This document shows, piece after piece, positions 5,142 to 60,529 of a stretch of DNA of 62,676 nt. Each line of letters begins with the position of its first letter. Positions within the stretch are counted from its first letter, which is position 1. The translations under genes were made by a program, and so were the position numbers. Origin of the DNA: an uncultured Bacteroidia bacterium (GTDB lineage Bacteria; Bacteroidota; Bacteroidia; Bacteroidales; F082); assembly GCA_902767725.1 (NCBI GenBank), contig CACXIM010000004.1, positions 1-62,676 of the forward strand, given 5' to 3'. The notes under the pieces were generated by a model. That model was not told the origin of the DNA and ran no database searches. It worked only from the letters and a program-made list of their open reading frames with translations.

Positions 5142-5222
5142 GGGGGAGTAGTTCAGTTGGTCAGAACCGATGGGGGCGCGCACCCTGTTGAGTCGCGGGT
5201 TCGAGTCCCGCCTCCCACACCA
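5142..5222 (+). tRNA. tRNA-like element with aberrant anticodon arm
   Basis: Acceptor GGGGGAG pairs with CTCCCAC apart from one G-A mismatch. The D arm is GTTC/GAAC, the T arm is GCGGG TTCGAGT CCCGC, and A plus an encoded CCA follow. The anticodon region (5168-5194) is too long and fits only a stem TGGGG/CCCTG with loop GCGCGCA, lacking U33, plus a 7-nt variable region. It may be a degenerate tRNA, a tRNA mimic or a processing signal, since it lies at the start of a predicted transcript. Isotype undetermined. Confidence 0.55.
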
Positions 5223-5257: not shown

Positions 5258-5662
5258 ATGCTAACATTATCTTTCCTGCGGGAAACCTTAAAAAACAAGA
5301 ATTACGATATTTTGGCTGATGACCAAATCGTTGAATCGACAAAAGGATTAGACGAAATTATCGGCATCATTCAAGATAAATGCGTTTCGCCAATCGTTAT
5401 CCTCGAAAACTCTGATACGGATGCTTTATCATCCTTCATGAAACCGCAGCAAACTCTTTGGCTAATGAAACGGATTCCCGATGGAGAATCCAGACAAAAC
5501 ACACAAAAACAGATTCTTGCAAAGGTAAGAAGTATCCTTTCTGTCTTCATGGCCAACAATGTAGAGTTGGCAAACTGGGAATGGGACTTGATTCCTTGCG
5601 AATTACGAGATATTGGTGATTTCACTGGATACGAGTTTACTTTGTTTTACTCTGAAGAATAA
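5258..5662 (+). CDS. Hypothetical virion-assembly protein, paralogue of 38132-38596
   Basis: 134 residues. It shares with the product of 38132 the N-terminal MLTL..LR, the central SPI.VLENS, W.MK..P, the NWEWDLIP/DWEWDRIP region and the FTGYEFTL.FSE C-terminus. In both places it is followed directly by a gp10-like gene, so the two genes move as a pair. No family recognised; a tail-completion or connector role is inferred from the partner. ATG start 35 nt after the tRNA-like CCA. Confidence 0.65.
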   Translation: MLTLSFLRETLKNKNYDILADDQIVESTKGLDEIIGIIQDKCVSPIVILENSDTDALSSFMKPQQTLWLMKRIPDGESRQNTQKQILAKVRSILSVFMANNVELANWEWDLIPCELRDIGDFTGYEFTLFYSEE

Positions 5663-6093
5663 TGAACAAGCAAGATGTTGTAGATTTGAAGAAATGGGCT
5701 GAAATCACCGTGCAGCGATGGGAAATGCGCATAGCGCAAATTGGTTTCGGACCCACATCGACAGGTGCCTTTATCAACTCGTTTCGAAACCACGTGGAAA
5801 ACGATGCAGGCGGCGACGCAGAAAAAATCTCCTTCACGTTCCTTTACTATGGATATTATTGGGATCAAGGCGTCGGAAAAGGATATTACCGTGGCAATCC
5901 TGGTGATTTGAAAAGCCTCGACCCATGGAACGGAGGCGAAGGCCACCGTAAGAAGCACCGCTGGTTCAATAAGATATTTTGGCGCGAGTTCAACCAGCTT
6001 GGCCGCCTCATGGCCGAACAATATGGGCAGCAGTGGGTTGACGAAGCAATGAAGGCAATACAGACTCTCAACTTCAATGGTCAACATGCGTGA
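5662..6093 (+). CDS. HK97 gp10-like head-tail joining/tail completion protein
   Basis: 143 residues, start overlapping the upstream stop by 1 nt. The core (DLKKWAEITVQRWEMRI, then INSFR.H, ISFTFLYYGYY.D.G and RWFNKIFWREFNQLGRLMAEQYG) is shared with 38574-38936. The size and layout resemble phage gp10-type proteins that finish the tail or join it to the head. This copy has about 15 extra residues between the YYGYY and RWFNK blocks. Family assignment is by overall look, so moderate. Confidence 0.55.
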   Translation: MNKQDVVDLKKWAEITVQRWEMRIAQIGFGPTSTGAFINSFRNHVENDAGGDAEKISFTFLYYGYYWDQGVGKGYYRGNPGDLKSLDPWNGGEGHRKKHRWFNKIFWREFNQLGRLMAEQYGQQWVDEAMKAIQTLNFNGQHA

Positions 6094-6115: not shown

Positions 6116-6145
6116 CTTGACAAATGTAAAATTTGTCTATCTTTG
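6116..6145 (+). promoter_or_regulatory. Promoter of cassette 1 leader
   Basis: CTTG at 6116-6119 and TATCTTTG at 6138-6145, separated by 18 nt, a Bacteroidetes-type -33/-7 pair. All four leader copies have the same 18-nt spacing and continue into GCAGCG/GCAACG. Confidence 0.75.
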
Positions 6146-6149
6146 CAGC

Positions 6150-6340
6150 GTTGAAATTCTTCGTGCGTCACGATGACGCAGCCCGAAAGCTGCTTTTTTT
6201 GTGGCCACACCTTACTGAAAATAAAAGAGTTATAATATGACTCGGACGATTGTGGTAGCAGTAATGCCCACGGGTTTTGCACGAAGAACCTCAACAAGTC
6301 GTACCGGGTCTTTTGTTTAATGTTTAAATCTTCGTGTAAA
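6150..6340 (+). ncRNA. Structured leader RNA, copy 1 (A-A'-A2 type)
   Basis: A is 6150-6165 (GTTGAAATTCTTCGTG). A hairpin GCAGC/GCTGC (6178-6193) carries seven T. Stem B 6239-6249 pairs with B' 6299-6310, ending in TTTTGTTT. The B loop holds hairpin GTGG/CCAC around GTAATG and antisense A' 6280-6295 (CACGAAGAACCTCAAC). A2 is 6322-6336, with TCTTCGTG 4 nt before ATG 6341. A' can pair with A or A2, not both. The elements are seen directly; translational control of the downstream gene is inference. Confidence 0.75.
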
Positions 6341-6550
6341 ATGGAAAATTCAAGAGAAAATGCGGCACAGGCCGCGAAGACCAACGGCTATCCCAAGCGT
6401 GCGCGGCTTTTCAGCCCTGACGGGCACGCCAACAACGACATCATCACCATGGTGGAAAACATCTATGTGGAGCGTTTCCTTCGCGCCCACGCGCGGCGCA
6501 TAGGCTGGCGCATCAGCGTCCGCATGATCAGGGAAGGAGGTGCAGTATGA
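6341..6550 (+). CDS. Cassette 1 first gene, small basic protein (family shared by all cassettes)
   Basis: 69 residues from ATG 6341; an in-frame ATG at 6320 would add MFKSSCK encoded by A2. Almost identical over residues 18-68 to the product of 59346 (YPKR.RLFSPDGHANNDIIT, then VERFLRAHARRIGWRISVRMI), and more distantly to those of 17107 and 28872 (NNIVTT...RLRA..G.LVAVRK). Arginine-rich, compact alpha/beta look, no Cys. Function unknown; nucleic-acid binding would fit the charge. Its last codons contain the GGAGG used by the next gene. Confidence 0.75.
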   Translation: MENSRENAAQAAKTNGYPKRARLFSPDGHANNDIITMVENIYVERFLRAHARRIGWRISVRMIREGGAV

Positions 6551-7562: not shown

Positions 7563-7616
7563 AAAAAATTCGCCGCCTGCGGCGTCCGGCTGGACTGGCA
7601 GGCGGCGAATTTTTTT
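7563..7616. terminator. Strong, probably bidirectional terminator
   Basis: AAAAAATTCGCCGCCTG (7563-7579) pairs with CAGGCGGCGAATTTTTT (7599-7615), a 17-bp stem with A and T runs on either side. Its T run merges into the TTTG of the late-type promoter that follows, so cassette 1 is insulated from the portal operon. Confidence 0.85.
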
Positions 7617-7672: not shown

Positions 7673-7894
7673 ATGATTCACGAAAGCAAATTGTTTGAAC
7701 TCGTGCAGGCTCACCCGAAGTTCTCCATCCAGTTCGTTGCCGCAAGCGGCGAGCTGGTGAAGGTGGATGAGTGCAGCTGCACTTCGTTCTTCAGCGGAGG
7801 CAAAACGATGAACATCAAGCTGCAAAACGGACAGTTCCGTAAGGTGAACCGTAAGACCGTCACGGCCTTCAATGGAAAGGAGGTATTCCTATGA
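7673..7894 (+). CDS. Small hypothetical protein upstream of portal
   Basis: 73 residues from ATG 7673, first gene after the late-type promoter. Small alpha/beta protein with two Cys in a VDECSC motif and a Lys/Arg-rich C-terminal half. It overlaps the portal start by 4 bp (ATGA). No family recognised; virion assembly role inferred from the operon. Confidence 0.65.
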   Translation: MIHESKLFELVQAHPKFSIQFVAASGELVKVDECSCTSFFSGGKTMNIKLQNGQFRKVNRKTVTAFNGKEVFL

Positions 7895-12868: not shown

Positions 12869-12940
12869 TGCCTATTAGCTCAGATAGTAGAGCGCAACAT
12901 CCTAATGTTGAGGTCATTGGTGCGGTTCCAATATAGGCAA
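12869..12940 (+). tRNA. tRNA-Arg(CCT)-like with shortened anticodon loop
   Basis: Acceptor TGCCTAT/ATAGGCA (7 bp), D arm GCTC/GAGC, anticodon stem CAACA/TGTTG, variable AGGTC, T arm ATTGG TGCGGTT CCAAT, discriminator A, no encoded CCA. The anticodon loop TCCTAA has only 6 nt; reading T33-C-C-T-A37 gives anticodon CCT. The T loop departs from TTC. Either a rearranged functional tRNA or a decaying one. Confidence 0.65.
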
Positions 12941-12943
12941 CAC

Positions 12944-13016
12944 TGCGGGGTAGAGCAGCGGCCAGCTCGCTGGGCCCATAACCCGGAGGTCGGCGGTTCG
13001 AATCCGTCCCCCGCTA
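12944..13016 (+). tRNA. Initiator tRNA (tRNA-fMet, CAT)
   Basis: All arms are canonical: acceptor TGCGGGG/CCCCGCT, D arm GAGC/GCTC, anticodon arm CTGGG CCCATAA CCCGG, T arm GGCGG TTCGAAT CCGTC, discriminator A. Initiator hallmarks are present: unpaired 1:72 (T-T), A11:T24 in the D stem, and three consecutive G-C pairs (29-31 with 39-41) next to the loop. CCA is not encoded. It lies 3 nt after the upstream tRNA, so both are probably co-transcribed. Confidence 0.9.
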
Positions 13017-13018
13017 CT

Positions 13019-13257: not shown

Positions 13258-13362
13258 GGAGATGTCGCCCAGAGGCAGGGCGTTCCGTGTAAAGGGTAGC
13301 AGAACAGAAGCACGGAGTAATAGTTCGCTTGAGAGACGCGGGTTCGAATCCCGCTTTCCCCA
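13258..13362 (+). tRNA. tRNA-like element with oversized anticodon region
   Basis: D arm GCCC AGAGGCA GGGC and a perfect T arm GCGGG TTCGAAT CCCGC followed by TTTCCCC-A. The acceptor pairing with GGAGATG is poor. Between D and T arms, CCGTG/CACGG encloses about 21 nt rather than 7, then about 20 nt more follow. It cannot be a normal elongator tRNA as folded; a decayed, inserted or mimic tRNA are options. Copy 2 of the structured element follows. Confidence 0.45.
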
Positions 13363-16867: not shown

Positions 16868-16897
16868 GTTGCAAAATTGAAAATTGTCGTATATTTG
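16868..16897 (+). promoter_or_regulatory. Promoter of cassette 2 leader
   Basis: GTTG at 16868-16871, an 18-nt spacer and TATATTTG at 16890-16897, followed by CAACG. Confidence 0.75.
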
Positions 16898-16900
16898 CAA

Positions 16901-17106
16901 CGCTATACGAGAGGGATAGACCTCTAAGCCGGGGCAGCTTCAACAGCCCAAGACACAGCCGAGGGCTTTTTTGATGCCCTCAAACTATAGACCCTTGCGG
17001 TCGCCTTTCGTGAGATTCAGCCCCCTTGGAGGCCTCTCGTATAGCAGCGAAATGGCGGCCGCTTTCTTTTTTGCTGCCCAATACCAACTCTTAAATGCTA
17101 TACGAT
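16901..17106 (+). ncRNA. Structured leader RNA, copy 2
   Basis: A 16901-16915 (CGCTATACGAGAGGG); hairpin AGCCC/GGGCT (16945-16967) with six T; B GCGGTCGCC 16997-17005 pairs with B' GGCGGCCGC 17054-17062, followed by a T-rich run; antisense A' CCTCTCGTATAGC 17033-17045, perfectly complementary to 13 nt of A; A2 GCTATACGA 17097-17105, one base before ATG 17107. An in-frame ATG at 17095 begins just before A2. Same architecture as copies 1, 3 and 4 with unrelated A sequence. Confidence 0.75.
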
Positions 17107-17439
17107 ATGCAACACACACAGAAGACAGCCGGACAGACGGCACCGAGAACACTGGTAATCATCCGCGATTGCCATTCAAAGCACAACATCGTAGTAACCG
17201 CCAACAGCGACCGCGAGGAAGAGAAAATCAGACTCCGCGCCCTCAGTGACGGATTCCTCGTGGCCTTGCGTAAGCCCAGACAACTTGAACCCCAACTTGA
17301 ACCCTCACTTGCACCCTCACAAGCCACAAACCATGTATGGCGTAAGCATTCGACCATCGAGCAACGCCCGCGCCCACGCTTGGGCGGTGCTTTCAACCTT
17401 GCACTTACTTCGTTGACCATGGAAGGAGGTGCGCTATGA
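17107..17439 (+). CDS. Cassette 2 first gene (cassette-protein family)
   Basis: 110 residues from ATG 17107 (114 from ATG 17095). N-terminus MQHTQKTAGQTA resembles that of 59346; from residue 14 it matches the 28872 product (TLVIIRDCHSK.NIV, E.IRLRA.S.G.LVA.RKP) and the shared C-terminus RPRPRLGGAFNLALTSLTME. A Pro/Gln/Leu linker (residues 54-70) differs between copies. Unknown function. The gene end encodes the SD of 17436. Confidence 0.75.
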   Translation: MQHTQKTAGQTAPRTLVIIRDCHSKHNIVVTANSDREEEKIRLRALSDGFLVALRKPRQLEPQLEPSLAPSQATNHVWRKHSTIEQRPRPRLGGAFNLALTSLTMEGGAL

Positions 17440-25785: not shown

Positions 25786-25837
25786 AGTGACCAAGGTCAT
25801 GACAGGCATCCTTTTCTATAAGTTAAATGGGCGCACC

Positions 25838-25860
25838 ACAAGCGGAATCAAACCGCTTGT
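25838..25860. repeat. Hairpin upstream of TR
   Basis: ACAAGCGG (25838-25845) and CCGCTTGT (25853-25860), loop AATCAAA. Lies 26 nt before TR and may be part of the DGR RNA. Confidence 0.5.
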
Positions 25861-25886
25861 TAATAAACGAATAGCGTGCGCAATAG

Positions 25887-26011
25887 CTTCGTCCAACTAC
25901 TGGAGTTCCACGGAGAACAGTGGTAATAACGCTTGGAACGTCAACTTCGGCGGCACGAACTCCAACAACAACAACAAGAACAACAGCAACGCAGTGAGGG
26001 CGGTGGCGGCA
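25887..26011 (+). repeat. DGR template region (TR)
   Basis: 125 bp, 19 adenines of which are substituted in VR. The A positions cluster in AAC/AAT codons (a run of Asn codons in the middle), the design that maximises amino-acid diversity without stop codons. TR is in frame with the RT reading frame, which is open from 25787 through the RT. Confidence 0.97.
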
Positions 26012-26038
26012 CTTGACGACGAAGAGAAGGCCTCTGTG

Positions 26039-27322
26039 ATGGAAGCTTATGATGACTGCTGCCGAAACAAGATGGGCAGCCCAGACTGTATCGAATTCCG
26101 GCTTCATCCCGAAATGATCATTGTGTTGGCCGTCCGGATAAAGTTGCGATGCTATGAGCCCGGTCTGTCAAAGACATTCATAGTGAAACGGCCAAAGCTT
26201 CGCGAGATCTTCGCTGCATTTTTCCTCGACCGTATTGTTCAACACTGGATATACCTTCGCATCAACCCACTTTTCGAAATCCGCTTTGTTTTGATGGGCA
26301 ACGTGTCGTATAACTGCCGTAAGGGATTCGGTACGCTTGCCGCCAGGATGAGACTATACAACGACATGCACAAGCACGGTTTTTCCTTCGACCTCTTTCT
26401 TGGCAAGTTCGACCTGTTTTCATGCTTCATGTCGACAGACAAGGTGGTGATGTGGGCAAAACTCGAAGAGTTCATCCCCGCCAATTACCAAGGCGAAGAC
26501 CTTGAAACCTTGATGTACCTGCTGAAGATAACCGTGTTCCACCGTCCACAAGACCATTGCGAACGCCGTGGCGACCTCAGTCTTTGGGAAAGGCTGCCCA
26601 AGGAAAAGAGCCTTTTCTACTGCAACGGACTACCCATCGGCAACATCACCACGCAAATCCTACTCAATTTCCTGCTGTCATACTTTGATGAATGGATTTT
26701 GTGGCGTATTGCCACGTTGGGATATGAGCATCCAGAGGAACACTACATCCGCTTCGTTGATGATTTCACGGTACATAGTATGCCAGTAGAGCATATCACA
26801 CTCCTTCATAGAGAGGCTGCGATATGGCTTTGGGAAAACCTTCACTTCAGGATGCACCCTGACAAGGTGTATATCCAACCGCAATTCCACGGTGTGAAAT
26901 TCGTCGGTGGTGTGATCTTGCCTGACCGTATGTACATCATCAACCGAACGGTTGCCGCCATGTACCTGAGAGTTAACTACACTGAAATCCTTTGCCGTGT
27001 CATCTTCGAGAAAGGAGCGACCGCAACGCGACTGTCTTTGTTGCAGCACTGCGTTTCGTCACTCAATTCTTATTCGGGGTTTTTAATATATGGCCGGTCG
27101 TACAACATCCAGAAGAAGTTGTTTTTAGATTTGACTTGGTTTTGGAAGGTGTGCTATACCAAAGGGAACCTTAATGTGGTAGTAATAAAGAAGCAATACA
27201 AACTTTCAAATTATCTCATCCATGAACAAGAATTACAGTGTAGAATTACCGACTCTTTTCGTCCAAGACATAGGGAGTCCTTCCCGGACGATAAATTTCT
27301 GCGTCGAGCCAGTCTCTGGTAG
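26039..27322 (+). CDS. DGR reverse transcriptase
   Basis: About 427 residues from ATG 26039; the frame is open back to 25787 through TR, but this start gives the usual DGR RT N-terminus (MEAYDDCCRNKM). Motifs: FDLFSCF near 124-130 (catalytic Asp), GLPIGNITTQ at 197-206, the DGR-type replacement of the usual QG motif, and FVDD at 239-242 in place of YxDD. It copies TR RNA with errors at A and, with Avd, replaces VR. The 3' end overlaps the next gene by 101 bp. Confidence 0.95.
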   Translation: MEAYDDCCRNKMGSPDCIEFRLHPEMIIVLAVRIKLRCYEPGLSKTFIVKRPKLREIFAAFFLDRIVQHWIYLRINPLFEIRFVLMGNVSYNCRKGFGTLAARMRLYNDMHKHGFSFDLFLGKFDLFSCFMSTDKVVMWAKLEEFIPANYQGEDLETLMYLLKITVFHRPQDHCERRGDLSLWERLPKEKSLFYCNGLPIGNITTQILLNFLLSYFDEWILWRIATLGYEHPEEHYIRFVDDFTVHSMPVEHITLLHREAAIWLWENLHFRMHPDKVYIQPQFHGVKFVGGVILPDRMYIINRTVAAMYLRVNYTEILCRVIFEKGATATRLSLLQHCVSSLNSYSGFLIYGRSYNIQKKLFLDLTWFWKVCYTKGNLNVVVIKKQYKLSNYLIHEQELQCRITDSFRPRHRESFPDDKFLRRASLW

Positions 27323-28266: not shown

Positions 28267-28296
28267 CTTGACTTTTCCAAAAAACCCGTATATTTG
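28267..28296 (+). promoter_or_regulatory. Promoter of cassette 3 leader
   Basis: CTTG at 28267-28270, an 18-nt spacer and TATATTTG at 28289-28296, then CAGCG. Confidence 0.75.
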
Positions 28297-28300
28297 CAGC

Positions 28301-28485
28301 GTTCAAAATCGATTGGCGTCACGAAGACGCCGCCTGCTTGCGGCTTTTTTTGTGGCCCCTACATACTGAAATTTGAGTCAACGACTCCGACGGACGCGGT
28401 ATCAGTAATGCCCGCAAGGTATCGCCAATCGAACCTTGAACACCCGTATCGGAGTCTTTTGTTTAATGTTCAAAATCGATTGGAA
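28301..28485 (+). ncRNA. Structured leader RNA, copy 3
   Basis: A 28301-28317 (GTTCAAAATCGATTGGC); hairpin GCCGC/GCGGC (28329-28344) with seven T; B GACTCCGACGG 28383-28393 pairs with B' 28444-28456 and ends TTTTGTTT; hairpin GCGG/CCGC around GTAATG (28396-28415); antisense A' 28424-28441; A2 28468-28483, identical to A over 16 nt, 2 nt before ATG 28486. ATG 28466 opens a 7-codon frame MFKIDWK whose stop overlaps the gene start (ATGA). Compared with copy 1, stems are kept by paired changes. Confidence 0.78.
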
Positions 28486-28875
28486 ATGAACAAATTTGAA
28501 GAAGAAATCGCCCGCCTCAACGAAGAGCGCAGCGAGAAGATCGCGCCGATTCAAGAGAGAATCGACAAACTTACGGTGCAAGTCCACAACATGAAGGAGC
28601 TGTGCAAACTCAACAGCTCGCAAATCGAAATCCTTGCCGAAGAAAAAAGAGCCATCAAGGAAGAGTATCACCAAAAGAAGCAAAAGCTTTACGAGGAATC
28701 GAAGGATTACTATTCCATCAACATGTCGGCCAACAAGTTGCGTTTCCTCCTTAAAGGCTTCTTGTCAGTGAACGACGGCATCAGAGAATTATGGGATGCC
28801 TATGTGACCGCCAACTTTCATGCAGCATCAGAATTAGCAAACGATTTGTCTATTATGAAAGGAGGTGCGGCATGA
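28486..28875 (+). CDS. Cassette 3 coiled-coil protein
   Basis: 129 residues; residues 1-75 are a long charged coiled coil (EEEIARLNEERSEKI, RIDKLTVQVHNMKEL), then a shorter helical end. The only first-in-cassette protein not in the 6341 family. Unknown function. Ends with GGAGG serving the next gene. Confidence 0.7.
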   Translation: MNKFEEEIARLNEERSEKIAPIQERIDKLTVQVHNMKELCKLNSSQIEILAEEKRAIKEEYHQKKQKLYEESKDYYSINMSANKLRFLLKGFLSVNDGIRELWDAYVTANFHAASELANDLSIMKGGAA

Positions 28876-29159
28876 AAACGCTCGTCATCATCCGTGATTG
28901 CCACAGCAAGAACAACATCGTGACCACCGCCGCCAACGACCGTGAGGAAGAGCGCATCCGCCTGCGTGCCATAAGCAAGGGCTATCTCGTGGCCGTCCGT
29001 AAGCCAAAGCAACCTGGTTGTGAAACACATTGCACAACCATACCGACCAATCGCACATGGCGCAAACCCGCCGCCATTGCCGAACGCCCGCGTCCACGCT
29101 TGGGCGGTGCCTTCAACCTTGCACTTACTTCATTGACCATGGAAGGAGGTGCGCTATGA
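28872..29159 (+). CDS. Cassette 3 member of the cassette-protein family
   Basis: 95 residues from ATG 28872 (ATGA overlap). MKTLVIIRDCHSKNNIVTTA and RLRAISKGYLVAVRK align with 17107, and the C-terminal RPRPRLGGAFNLALTSLTME is the same; a short variable linker lies between. Distantly related to 6341 and 59346. Unknown function. Confidence 0.75.
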   Translation: MKTLVIIRDCHSKNNIVTTAANDREEERIRLRAISKGYLVAVRKPKQPGCETHCTTIPTNRTWRKPAAIAERPRPRLGGAFNLALTSLTMEGGAL

Positions 29160-38131: not shown

Positions 38132-38596
38132 ATGCTTACATTAGACTATCTCCGTAAAAGATTGAATGGCCATGTAGCAGCCATCTATAATGTCAAGGAA
38201 CAGGTCATCGAATCGGCAGGAGGCTTTGATGGCATCGTTTCACTTGTCCAAACCAAAAACATATCGCCGATTTTTGTGCTCGAAAACAGCGAGATAGGAG
38301 AGTTTTCGTTCCGACCTGGCGGCTTCGACAAGACTTCGCAATCCATCTGGGTTATGAAGATGGTGCCGAAGGACGGCGACCGACAGAAAGTGCAGCAGGA
38401 GTGCTTCAAGTTGATGAAGCGCATCCTTTCTATCCTCGCTATCCATGACGACGATGATGAATATCTGAAGGACTGGGAATGGGATAGAATCCCATGGGGG
38501 GTGCGTAATGCAGGTGCCAACTTCACAGGTTACGAGTTTACACTGTACTTTTCCGAAGACACCGATTTGACTTATGGACCAGGAACATATTGTTGA
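38132..38596 (+). CDS. Paralogue of 5258-5662
   Basis: 154 residues, 2 nt after the upstream stop. Shares MLTL..LR, ISPIFVLENS, DWEWDRIP and NFTGYEFTLYFSED with 5258. A 12-residue C-terminal extension overlaps the next gene by 23 bp. Unknown function; assembly role inferred. Confidence 0.65.
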   Translation: MLTLDYLRKRLNGHVAAIYNVKEQVIESAGGFDGIVSLVQTKNISPIFVLENSEIGEFSFRPGGFDKTSQSIWVMKMVPKDGDRQKVQQECFKLMKRILSILAIHDDDDEYLKDWEWDRIPWGVRNAGANFTGYEFTLYFSEDTDLTYGPGTYC

Positions 38597-38936
38597 CTTG
38601 AAGCAATGGGCTGAAATCACCGTCCAGCGGTGGGAAATGAGAATCGCAAAGCTGCGGTTCCTGCCCACCCACAGCGGCGACCTCATCAACTCGTTTCGCG
38701 CCCATGTTGAAAAGGACGCGAACGGCGACGTGGCCAAAATCAGTTTCACCTTTTTATATTATGGCTACTACGTGGATGCCGGAGCGGGTCCTGGCTACCG
38801 TTTGCCCAAAAGATGGTTCAACAAGATTTATTGGCGTGAGTTCAACCAGTTGGGCCGACTGATGGCAGCCCAGTACGGCCAGGAATGGATTGACGAGGTC
38901 ATGAAGTCCATCGAGACCATTAACCTTCACGGCTAA
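38574..38936 (+). CDS. Paralogue of 5662-6093 (gp10-like)
   Basis: 120 residues: VDLKQWAEITVQRWEMRIAK, ISFTFLYYGYYVDAGAG, RWFNKIYWREFNQLGRLMA. The second copy of the pair, placed at the end of the tail genes. The shorter spacer relative to 5662 makes it look like the more typical gp10-like form. Its end overlaps the converging integrase gene by 4 bp. Confidence 0.6.
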   Translation: MDQEHIVDLKQWAEITVQRWEMRIAKLRFLPTHSGDLINSFRAHVEKDANGDVAKISFTFLYYGYYVDAGAGPGYRLPKRWFNKIYWREFNQLGRLMAAQYGQEWIDEVMKSIETINLHG

Positions 38937-58655: not shown

Positions 58656-59087
58656 ATGAACAAAGTAGCACTGAAAACCATCGGCTTCGTCGAGCAAAAC
58701 GAGGCCAACGACCAATGGACGCAACAACAGGAACAGCAGCTTGCCGAAAGAAGCCTGCCCCAAGACATATACATCGACGGCATCCACCGCTTCCGTAGCA
58801 TCGACCAAGACAATTCCTCTATGAATGAGGATCTTGAAATAGGCGAGGAAGGCAACAAATACCGCCAAGAGGTTCAGTTTGTGGTGCGTACCGAGTACGA
58901 CCGCAAGCTGGCCAAGAAATACGAGCGCCGCCCGCTGGTGGTGCACGTGTGGGCTGTGAACGGCGACCATTATAAAATAGGTACACCAACCTATCCGGCC
59001 TATCTCATCCCCTCCAAGAGCAATAGCATGAATGCCGTTGAAACGGCCATGACCGTGAATTACGAAACGCTTACGCCAATAATGTAG
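58656..59087 (+). CDS. Hypothetical protein before cassette 4
   Basis: 143 residues. Gln/Glu-rich N-terminus, then beta-type core (QEVQFVVRTEYDRKLAKKYE, RPLVVHVWAVNGDHYKIGTP). The strand pattern recalls small virion or tail-terminator-like proteins; not certain. Preceded by the direct repeats. Confidence 0.6.
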   Translation: MNKVALKTIGFVEQNEANDQWTQQQEQQLAERSLPQDIYIDGIHRFRSIDQDNSSMNEDLEIGEEGNKYRQEVQFVVRTEYDRKLAKKYERRPLVVHVWAVNGDHYKIGTPTYPAYLIPSKSNSMNAVETAMTVNYETLTPIM

Positions 59088-59105
59088 AAAAAAAATGCCC
59101 AAAAT

Positions 59106-59135
59106 GTTGCACAATTGAAAAAAGCCGTATATTTG
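59106..59135 (+). promoter_or_regulatory. Promoter of cassette 4 leader
   Basis: GTTG at 59106-59109, an 18-nt spacer, TATATTTG at 59128-59135, then CAGCG. Confidence 0.75.
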
Positions 59136-59139
59136 CAGC

Positions 59140-59345
59140 GTTCAAGTTAAACATGCGGGACGAGTGAAATCGTCCGTATGCGCTGCGTCCGGGCATTTTT
59201 TTATGCCCCAATGCGGCACCAGATATGGCGGCGTGCCAACCCCGTGATGCGGCTGTAATGGCCGTGTCGGTCCCGTATGTATGACTTGAACAGCGGGAAG
59301 TGGCGCGCCGCTTTTTTCGTGCCATATGTTCAAAATACATACATT
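59140..59345 (+). ncRNA. Structured leader RNA, copy 4
   Basis: A 59140-59160; hairpin GGACGA/TCGTCC; a T run (59196-59202) within GGGCAT/ATGCCC; B GCGGCGTGCC 59228-59237 pairs with B' GGCGCGCCGC 59302-59311 and ends in six T; an outer stem ATATGGC/GCCATAT encloses it; hairpin CGGC/GCCG around GTAATG; antisense A' 59271-59291; A2 59328-59343 (GTTCAAAATACATACA), 2 nt before ATG 59346. A' matches both A and A2 best at GTTCAA and ACAT. Confidence 0.72.
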
Positions 59346-59555
59346 ATGCAAAATTCATTACAGACGGCGGGAAAGACCGCAACCCCTCACGGCTACCCCA
59401 AGCGGGTGCGCCTCTTCAGCCCCGACGGGCACGCCAACAACGACATCATCACCACGGCAGACGACATCCATGTGGAGCGTTTCCTTCGCGCCCACGCCAG
59501 GCGCATAGGGTGGCGCATCAGCGTCCGCATGATCAGGGAAGGAGGTGCGAGATGA
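59346..59555 (+). CDS. Cassette 4 first gene, near-copy of 6341
   Basis: 69 residues. MQNSLQTAGKTATPHGYPKR, RLFSPDGHANNDIIT and VERFLRAHARRIGWRISVRM match 6341. DNA identity is also high, so this is a recent duplication or transfer. ATGA overlap with the next gene. Confidence 0.8.
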   Translation: MQNSLQTAGKTATPHGYPKRVRLFSPDGHANNDIITTADDIHVERFLRAHARRIGWRISVRMIREGGAR

Positions 59556-59890
59556 GTGAATTCAAGAGAATAGCCGAAGACGCTCCCAGCGAGGAACAAG
59601 TGGCAAGAAAGAAAGCCGTGTGTGAGTTGAAAATCGGGCAAGTGCCGTCGCTGGCGAATTTGTTTGGCTATGCCGGTGTTGATGGCGAAACGCTCGACAG
59701 GAATCGTAAACGGTTGGATTATGCAGTGTTGGCAATGTCGGAATGGCTGGATGTGATGGAAGACTCCGAATCCCTGATGCATGCCTTCCACGTCATGTGC
59801 GACTGCCGCTTTTTCGTGAATCAAATTGAAGGACAAATCCTGAAGGCAGTTCACGCCACAATGGAAGAAGAGAAAGGAGGTGAGGAATGA
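59552..59890 (+). CDS. Cassette 4 hypothetical helical protein
   Basis: 112 residues, helical, acidic. Similar in size and place to 6547 but with little sequence identity; ends EEEKGGEE (embedded SD). Unknown. Confidence 0.65.
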   Translation: MSEFKRIAEDAPSEEQVARKKAVCELKIGQVPSLANLFGYAGVDGETLDRNRKRLDYAVLAMSEWLDVMEDSESLMHAFHVMCDCRFFVNQIEGQILKAVHATMEEEKGGEE

Positions 59891-60240
59891 TGACCTGCAC
59901 CGAAACCATCACGCGTCTCTGCGAACTTGTGGCAGAAATCGAGGAGATAAGAACGAACACCGAAGTATGCTGGGTCGGCTACGACCTACATGATATAGGT
60001 GAAAAGTTACAAGACATGATACTGACAATGCAAGAGCAAAAAGTGATGAAAAAGCCCTATGTCACCATCAAAGTGCCGTTGGACGGCTCTGTTTTGCGCC
60101 GCTTGAATATGTGTAAGGAAAAAGGACTTACGTCGAACGAGCTTTCCGCGATCGCCGTGCTTCACAACATTTATGACGACTTTGCCTTTCCTATCTACGA
60201 CGCATGGCTGAAGCAAAGCAAGGAAGGAGGTGAGCAATGA
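59887..60240 (+). CDS. Cassette 4 protein of ITRLCE family with extra domain
   Basis: 117 residues. The N-terminus ITRLCELVAEIEEI matches 7130 and 17436, then an added alpha/beta part (PYVTIKVPLDGSVLRRLN, GLTSNELSAIAVLHNIYDDF) with an HTH look. Unknown; possible regulator. Confidence 0.65.
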   Translation: MMTCTETITRLCELVAEIEEIRTNTEVCWVGYDLHDIGEKLQDMILTMQEQKVMKKPYVTIKVPLDGSVLRRLNMCKEKGLTSNELSAIAVLHNIYDDFAFPIYDAWLKQSKEGGEQ

Positions 60241-60473
60241 ACAAACAGAAGACGATAGAAAGCTATCCCGTCCTGATGGATTACATAGGCACTTGCGCCG
60301 ACGACAGCCGCCTCGATGCCGACCTCGAAGGCCTCAAGGACATACTGCCCGGCCTGGTGAAGGTGCGCGCCTGTTGCGGCAACGACGACATCGAAGAGAT
60401 GGATTCGGCTATCCAGTGCATAGGCTTCACCATAACCAACCTCAAGGAACTGCGTAAGGAACTCCTCAACTGA
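60237..60473 (+). CDS. Cassette 4 last gene
   Basis: 78 residues, helical, acidic (MDYIGTCADDSRLDADLEGL). ATGA overlap. Unknown. Confidence 0.65.
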   Translation: MNKQKTIESYPVLMDYIGTCADDSRLDADLEGLKDILPGLVKVRACCGNDDIEEMDSAIQCIGFTITNLKELRKELLN

Positions 60474-60495
60474 CGCTATCCATCCACCACAGCCA

Positions 60496-60529
60496 AACGG
60501 CGGCGACTTCGGTTGCCGCCGTTTTTTTT
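60496..60529 (+). terminator. Terminator of cassette 4
   Basis: A 12-bp stem (60496-60507 with 60512-60523) capped by a C-TTCG-G tetraloop, then eight T that run into the TTTG of the next promoter. Confidence 0.92.

Follow-up and report, generated by a model that had tools for sequence, protein, structure and literature searches.

Why should one phage genome carry four leaders in which a short segment (A, here a1), its antisense (A', here a'), and a second match to that antisense (A2, here a2) precede a start codon, in letters that change completely from one leader to the next? The leaders lie in the window, the 62,676-nt stretch of DNA analyzed here, at 6116-6345, 16868-17109, 28267-28488, and 59106-59348, all on the + strand. 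A reading made from the sequence alone (the sequence-only reading) had described them as copies of one leader RNA with antisense logic. Our analyses make it likely that each locus is a c4-type antisense silencing module heading a cargo cassette.

The window ends share an exact 99-nt terminal overlap. Therefore, we read the window as a circular genome of about 62.6 kb. PHROG matches to a terminase, a head protease, a tape measure protein, two integrases, and a reverse transcriptase lead us to read it as a temperate phage. The gene at 7891 encodes a 459-aa protein without a family match, a portal protein by position only. Searched against the named genomes, it gave five loci, all in uncultured Bacteroidales/Bacteroidia metagenome-assembled genomes; the RUG isolate names presumably denote rumen genomes. 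A DNA similarity search of the window against the "phages" collection gave no match. The reverse transcriptase gene (25787-27322; PHROG 1423, E 5.9e-47) has a weak Lcl_C match in its N-terminal part, which to us resembles the asparagine-rich template/variable region of a diversity-generating retroelement. Two adjacent gene pairs (5258-6093 and 38132-38936) resemble diverged duplicates inside one phage, and phage tRNA genes or tRNA-like sequences lie at 12869-13017, 5142-5222, and 13258-13362.

All four loci have the same order: promoter, a1 close to where transcription should begin, U-run hairpin, folded RNA that contains a' (antisense to a1) and ends in a U-run, a2, and start codon (Table 1). 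We take the promoters to be of the Bacteroidetes type from the form of their consensus. In c4 of P1/P7, too, a complementary upstream copy (a1/b1) lies on the same transcript.

Table 1. Positions of the module and cassette features in the window
Locus	Feature	Position	Strand	Basis
1	Promoter, Bacteroidetes-type (TTG ... TATCTTTG)	6117..6145	+	sequence; consensus form
1	a1 (A)	6150..6166	+	inverted repeat with a'; energies
1	Early hairpin GCAGC/GCTGC + U7 run	6178..6200	+	sequence
1	Folded antisense RNA (putative), Rfam c4-2	6238..6313	+	RF02944 41.1 bits; fold z -3.76
1	a' (A'), third hairpin loop + 3' strand	6279..6295	+	repeat, Rfam alignment, energies
1	a2 (A2), 4 nt upstream of ATG at 6341	6322..6336	+	repeat (6326-6336), energies
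1	First cargo gene, 69 aa	6341..6550	+	
1	Coding hairpin GCGG/CCGC, loop CACAGG (variant form)	6362-6375	+	
1	Additional small cargo genes, 101, 94, and 62 aa	6547..7318	+	
1	Terminator-like palindrome + U-run, end of cassette 1	7563..7615	+	also sub-threshold, unrelated Rfam match
2	Promoter (TTG ... TATATTTG)	16869..16897	+	sequence
2	a1	16902..16914	+	inverted repeat, energies
2	Early hairpin GCCC/GGGC + U6 run	16946..16972	+	sequence
2	Folded antisense RNA (putative), scaffold without Rfam match	16994..17066	+	model R2 80.2 bits (R2 built partly from this copy itself); alignment fold
2	a'	17033..17045	+	inverted repeat, energies
2	a2, directly upstream of ATG at 17107	17097..17105	+	repeat (17094-17105), energies
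2	Cargo gene, 110 aa; covarying coding hairpin 17128-17141	17107..17439	+	
3	Promoter (TTG ... TATATTTG)	28268..28296	+	sequence
3	a1	28301..28318	+	inverted repeat, energies, comparison with L015
3	Early hairpin GCCGC/GCGGC + U7 run	28329..28351	+	sequence
3	Folded antisense RNA (putative), c4-2 below gathering score	28383..28458	+	RF02944 37.4 bits; z -3.48
3	a'	28423..28440	+	inverted repeat, energies, comparison with L015
3	a2, directly upstream of ATG at 28486	28468..28483	+	repeat, energies, comparison with L015
3	First cargo gene, 129 aa	28486..28875	+	
3	Second cargo gene, paralogue of locus 2 gene (68%)	28872..29159	+	
4	Promoter (TTG ... TATATTTG)	59107..59135	+	sequence
4	a1	59140..59161	+	inverted repeat, energies
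4	Early hairpin GGGCA/TGCCC around T7 run	59191..59208	+	sequence, fold
4	Folded antisense RNA (putative), scaffold without Rfam match	59227..59313	+	fold z -4.02
4	a'	59270..59291	+	inverted repeat, energies
4	a2, directly upstream of ATG at 59346	59328..59342	+	energies
4	First cargo gene, 69 aa, 76% to locus 1 gene; covarying coding hairpin 59367-59380	59346..59555	+	
4	Entire cassette	59087..60522	+	missing from same site in two related phages
4	Terminator	about 60497-60529	+	spans right cassette junction

The a1/a' arms, 104-118 nt apart, are 17 nt at 88% at locus 1 (6150-6166 with 6279-6295), 13 nt at 100% at locus 2 (16902-16914 with 17033-17045), 10 nt at 100% at locus 3 (28309-28318 with 28423-28432, longer if mismatches are allowed), and 22 nt at 86% at locus 4 (59140-59161 with 59270-59291). 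a2 is a direct repeat of a1 at 6326-6336 (locus 1), 17094-17105 (locus 2), and 28468-28483 (locus 3). At locus 4 such a repeat was looked for and not found; its a2 nevertheless pairs with a'. In a 4-by-4 matrix of duplex energies, computed for loci originally chosen for this very a1/a'/a2 match, every own pairing was stronger than all cross-pairings: -23.4 to -34.7 versus -7.4 to -13.9 kcal/mol for a':a1, and -15.9 to -19.4 versus -4.0 to -9.2 kcal/mol for a':a2. Random 29-mers from the window were as good as the own a1 pairing in 1, 3, 1, and 0 of 3000 cases (loci 1 to 4) and as good as own a2 in 13, 110, 14, and 79 of 3000; a2 alone is moderately unusual. An exact-word scan for promoter, a1, a', a2, and ATG together found three instances in the window (loci 1 to 3) versus nine in 200 shuffled windows. 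It missed locus 4 because the pairing there is interrupted. Direct reading, the computed repeats, and the matrix thus bear out two claims of the sequence-only reading, that the four loci share a layout and that A differs between loci yet is matched within each. The stem changes it had listed (GCAGC/GCTGC versus GCCGC/GCGGC, GACTCGG/CCGGGTC versus GACTCCGA/TCGGAGTC, and GTGG/CCAC versus GCGG/CCGC) are likewise present.

The same reading knew of no described element with this layout. The c4-type kind is, however, already known (c4 and c4-2). Locus 1 belongs to Rfam c4-2 (RF02944, clan CL00128, by its name presumably the clan of c4), with 41.1 bits barely over the gathering score of 41, and locus 3 falls just under it with 37.4 bits. 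c4 motifs also appear in PMC2864571. For loci 2 and 4, Rfam gave no match with E allowed up to 5. This limit matters because the c4-2-type module L077 is missed at the gathering threshold, whereas our model R1 gives it 80 bits. Lack of a match at that threshold therefore only weakly marks a separate family; for loci 2 and 4 it extends beyond the threshold, up to E 5.

Aligned to Rfam, loci 1 and 3 show an outer stem, a GNRA-type hairpin, and a variable-loop hairpin, in c4-2 order. The predicted fold of locus 4 has an outer stem and two inner hairpins, with GUAA in the second, and that of locus 2 has a 15-pair outer stem and an interior unlike c4-2. Compared with shuffles, fold stability gave z values of -3.8, -3.5, and -4.0 for loci 1, 3, and 4 and a weaker -1.9 for locus 2. 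An automatic alignment of the c4 core (A2) recovered the second hairpin only and misplaced the outer stem; for that stem, covariation is therefore judged from Rfam and from reading the sequences. In the window leaders at 6170-6210 and 28315-28360, a segment 3' of the early U-run pairs with the strand 5' of the U-run, in a stem that covaries; similar wraps were seen by eye after the end U-run of the locus-2 and locus-4 scaffolds.

Within the window's family, c4-2 was found in 18 of 173 genomes at E up to 0.01 (15 over the cut-off), and in a class sample in 4 of 395 (three over the cut-off, one genome with six copies). Read directly, most matches have a1 upstream and a2 downstream. Therefore, the a1/a'/a2 plan belongs to the c4-2 family. 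Locus-2-type relatives (L059-L066, L050, and others) share the 15-pair outer stem and have no Rfam match at the gathering threshold; their a' has an additional partner within the RNA, with an own value reached by 45 of 20,000 permutations. The locus-2-type covariance model R2 matched 11 of the 173 family genomes and 3 of 295 genomes of the class, including the window's own. The others were L128, from a different family of the same order, in which the a'/a2 layout is visible by eye and a1 is imperfect, and L129, which lies outside the genus, lacks the layout by eye, and was judged false. The locus-4 type has two clear relatives, one in genome G064 and one in a viral contig.

Matching was scored across 49 modules, all with different a' (33 of the c4-2 type, 13 of the locus-2 type, and 3 of the locus-4 type), using a1 windows anchored on the promoter. 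L020 and L025, which had no promoter match, and W3 (locus 3), whose a' is the same as that of L019, were left out. The own a1 was the best partner in 34 modules and among the top three in 41, and the own a2 in 21 and 35, respectively. None of 20,000 permutations reached the own-pair mean, for a1 or for a2, and the same was true of each in the locus-2 type alone. Mean own energies were -24.1 for a1:a' versus -17.4 for a2:a'. Within the 49, loci 1, 2, and 4 rank first for own a1 and second for own a2, and among the 33 c4-2-type modules the own segment was in the top three of 49 for 25 (a1) and 20 (a2). The sample was not blind: L102a, L102b, L118b, and L119 were first located through an address scan, although similarity or model searches also match them. 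Two earlier counts used other a1 windows. With a fixed window that missed short leaders, own a1 was best in 27 of 51 modules and own a2 in 22 of 51; with a wide window, the figures were 16 and 19 of 33 units.

Own a1 fell beyond rank 3 in eight modules (L007, L008, L009, L023, L024, L027, L028, and L029). Pairing of a2 is the weakest part, with 14 of 49 beyond rank 3. In L014, L016, L017, and L030, the match seems to span or follow the start codon, or to be poor. L023 and L026-L029 are copies in G273, L019 has a gene intervening before a2, and the rest are L024, L033 (rank 4), L083, and L102a (rank 5). Five c4-2 copies of G273 precede related 77-aa genes and by eye have five different short addresses, which are A/T-rich and mostly ranked low in the energy test. 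In four of these modules (L023, L026, L027, and L028), an ATG and an open frame run from after a1 into the folded RNA, by eye a decoy-like target start.

A natural experiment is provided by locus 3 and its relative L015, whose downstream proteins show 100% identity across 129 aa. The alignment of the two modules has 15 differences, and 12 of these fall in a1, a', or a2, which make up 54 of the 192 positions (Fisher p 2e-5). Each of the four changes in a1 has a pair-restoring counterpart in a', where a fifth change occurs beyond the ten-pair core. Of the three changes in a2, two follow a1 and one does not. This address co-change is written in the sequences themselves. Together with the 49 modules, such natural compensatory changes support two proposals made at the outset, an antisense logic like that of c4 and joint variation of A, A', and A2.

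From these data, we infer that the RNA is made, is processed, and acts in trans. A single Bacteroidetes-type promoter would place a1, the folded RNA, a2, and the cargo gene on one transcript. The folded RNA would end at its U-run, and the 5' part bearing a1 would probably be removed by processing. Exposed in a loop or junction, a' would then pair with a2 over the cargo start region and block cargo translation. The letters of a1, a', and a2 would be an address. Modules whose addresses differ would not be expected to silence one another, and this phage would then have four independent circuits, one per cassette. If P1 c4 is a guide, cargo would be expressed in a burst on entry into a cell that lacks the RNA, and expression would cease once the RNA has accumulated or where a prophage of the same address is present.

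Predicted folding bears on the form of the RNA. When the RNA ends at the folded RNA, the mean a1:a' pair probability is 1.0 at locus 2, 0.93 at locus 4, 0.40 at locus 1, and 0.47 at locus 3. An RNA of about 160 nt that retains a1 would thus pair with itself (partly so at loci 1 and 3), which argues for processing. By analogy with the c4 of P1/P7, a 5'-processed active RNA of about 75-90 nt is more likely than the roughly 160-nt form proposed earlier. In a longer RNA that extends past the start codon, the proposed capture of A' by A is predicted at loci 2 and 4 (1.0 and 0.92) and not at loci 1 and 3 (0.10 and 0.00). In nested co-folding, the intact folded RNA gained no net energy with a2 (+1.0 to +3.1 kcal/mol at loci 1 to 3 and +0.8 at locus 4), and with the a1 leader the results were mixed (+1.2, -9.2, -5.1, and -2.0 kcal/mol). 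Co-folding covers nested pairs and excludes loop-loop contacts; even so, the a2 result counts against a simple reading.

The stronger pairing of a' with a1 than with a2 would be expected if the target were a1. Pairing of a' with a1 on nascent RNA might favor the early U-run terminator and shut off its own operon by attenuation, with a2 secondary. Antisense binding switches a terminator on in pT181. The early U-run stem covaries, with 3 of 7 pairs changed on both sides across 12 leaders. When a1 was the sole position set blocked, the predicted terminator probability rose in 8 of 16 c4-2-type leaders and fell in none, and it rose in both locus-4-type leaders (2/2). However, the terminator was already formed in 8 of the 16 c4-2-type leaders, and the locus-2-type leaders gave no rises and three falls in 10. 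(A first run, with 13 falls and 4 rises in 28, had blocked an a1 set that was far too wide and was discarded.) Moreover, short-leader c4-2 modules such as L004 and L006-L009 have no U-run after a1, and attenuation leaves the match of a2 to a' unexplained. We consider it unlikely.

A second alternative keeps a2 and dispenses with any free antisense RNA. In a purely local switch, a1 and a2 would compete for a' in one mRNA, and the cis pairing of a1 with a' predicted above, at loci 2 and 4 and in part at loci 1 and 3, is in its favor. Against it is the arrangement in G095 (L019). There, a1 and a' are the same as at locus 3, but the next gene, of 81 aa, has no matching a2. Counted from the first base of the folded RNA, the 16-nt a2 of locus 3 is instead 375 nt away (the window distance is 93 nt), beyond the intervening gene, where it precedes a 94% identical homologue of the locus 3 gene. 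Therefore, a2 travels with its gene and not with the RNA. The arrangement is consistent with action over a distance, and a leader switch that is only local does not account for a matching a2 that stays with its own gene. In addition, P1/P7 c4 RNAs are processed and act on target mRNAs, and Acinetobacter C4-like RNAs appear processed, according to PMC5320573. A local switch alone is accordingly improbable in our judgment.

The cargo might indicate what a silencing RNA of the c4 type would control. Antirepressor-type domains lie behind a2 in six related modules: Bro-N in L014, L016, L020, and L077, KilA-N with ANT in L017, and AntA in L128, whose scaffold is of the locus-2 type. For seven other related cargo proteins, including that of L084, no Pfam match was accepted. 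Ten window cargo proteins, compared with Pfam and PHROGs, had no antirepressor domain and no accepted Pfam family; their PHROG matches were weak and to families without an annotated function (best E 0.0018). A HicB-like antitoxin match (E 0.35) and four PADLOC matches of one protein (best E 0.0023) were too weak, and Pfam coiled-coil matches were below the cut-off. Two pairs of cargo genes are paralogous: the first genes of loci 1 and 4 (76%), and the locus 2 gene with the second gene of locus 3 (68%). The locus 1 protein matched one locus in viral contigs. AlphaFold gave a poor model for the locus-2 protein (pLDDT 57.7) and a small beta-beta-alpha-beta fold for the locus-4 protein (pLDDT 76.6), which had no match in the PDB or among viral models at E 0.001 or better.

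The cargo proteins are small, and that of one relative (L022, 61 aa) looks membrane-like by eye, as would suit an addiction module of the type I toxin-antitoxin kind with toxic cargo and the RNA as antitoxin. In classic type I pairs, the RNA and the mRNA do not come from one promoter and strand; here they do. With antirepressor-type cargo in six relatives, and no toxin or defence family accepted among the tested proteins beyond weak chance-level matches, addiction is very unlikely. That A and A', inverted repeats with 104-118 nt between their arms, are DNA inversion sites like those of invertible Bacteroidales promoters is scarcely credible, because the repeat letters vary by locus around a conserved scaffold, whereas a site for a recombinase would be expected to keep its sequence; in addition, A2 adds a third copy at the start codon, and the promoter lies outside the repeats.

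Comparison with selected relatives, which was not systematic, suggests that the modules head exchangeable cassettes. Cassette 4 is missing from the same site in L105 (G118) and L098 (G129), where there is a short other sequence; window positions 59086 and 60523 correspond to 5406 and 5479 in L105 and to 121 and 195 in L098. A phage moron is a self-contained unit inserted between two genes that are neighbors in related phages. Cassette 4, with its own promoter and terminator and its insertion relative to L105 and L098, has this form. The slot of locus 1, between the terminase gene and the 459-aa gene at 7891, holds c4-2 modules with another gene in G129 and G118 and a locus-4-type module in G064. 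Upstream of the tape-measure gene, the place of locus 3 is taken in G129 by a locus-2-type module. Thus, heads, cargo, and sites recombine.

The head often continues past the start codon. The peptide TAG[EKQ]TA or a close variant opens the cargo in 22 of 51 modules examined, in unrelated gene families. In all 22, the wobble base of the second peptide codon complements that of the fifth, a pair that would close a hairpin (10 GC, 9 CG, 2 TA, and 1 AT); none of 100,000 permutations matched this result. These sequences were selected by protein motif and not by pairing, although L077, L083, L084, and L095, all of the G-C type, were obtained through a TAG-sequence pattern. Because the modules are related, the 22 hairpins are not 22 independent events. 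Loci 2 and 4 have the hairpin, locus 1 has a variant, and locus 3 has none. A covarying hairpin in the first codons means that the module reaches into the coding region. In viral contigs, the tag-sequence pattern gave 29 stretches, of which 5 were judged modules (L032, L077, L083, L084, and L095) and the others unrelated sequence.

A wider proposal, to which we give even odds, is that an exchangeable head (promoter, a1, terminator hairpin, c4-like RNA, a2, start codon, and often the TAG[EKQ]TA tag peptide with its covarying RNA hairpin) is placed on unrelated cargo in several slots, and that the address diversifies so that many units can share one cell. Cargo would then be addressed by RNA, through three or more scaffold families of which two lie outside Rfam. 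Four things are, as far as we have seen, new: two scaffolds that Rfam does not match, a single phage with four addresses, the organization into cassettes, and the hairpin within the coding region; among open-licence papers, we found none on these four points and none linking c4 antisense with a moron. What was a textbook oddity of P1/P7 now comprises dozens of RNA-target pairs that have separate addresses and show naturally occurring compensation, so the c4 a1/a'/a2 model can be tested directly. It also suggests self-silencing for some phage cargo genes, whose use may be confined to entry, and addresses of this kind could let several prophages or cassettes share a cell. A second RNA signal, beside the c4-like module, is the hairpin in the first codons.

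Among known systems, c4-2 (RF02944) is nearest to loci 1 and 3, which have the same three-helix fold and U-run end. Loci 2 and 4 differ from it in having no match up to E 5, and the U-run leader hairpin and the coding hairpin found here are absent from short-leader c4-2 modules such as L004-L010. In P1/P7 c4 (RF01695), as here, a' is complementary to an upstream a1 and to a2 at the target start, on the same strand. P1/P7 has one unit, in an antirepressor operon, whereas the window phage has four units with four addresses and dispersed cargo. An antirepressor target has no counterpart among the ten tested window cargo proteins, unlike the six related modules described above. Weinberg 2010 (PMC2864571) lists "c4 antisense RNA" and "c4-a1b1" motifs. 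As described in a section of PMC5320573, RNase P trims the P1/P7 RNA out of a longer transcript, leaving about 77 nt, and the variable a' of this RNA sets target specificity; in the model given there and in PMC8546580 and PMC8201110, the cut RNA pairs with the start region of the following gene. The C4-like Group 1 sRNAs of Acinetobacter baumannii, 21 similar sequences in the same section of PMC5320573, are likewise many paralogous c4-like RNAs that vary in a'. Their targets are not assigned in that section, whereas here each RNA matches a following gene. Finally, cassette 4 resembles phage morons in having its own promoter and terminator and in being absent from two related phages, and it differs from them in that expression of the window cassettes is predicted to be gated by their own antisense RNA.
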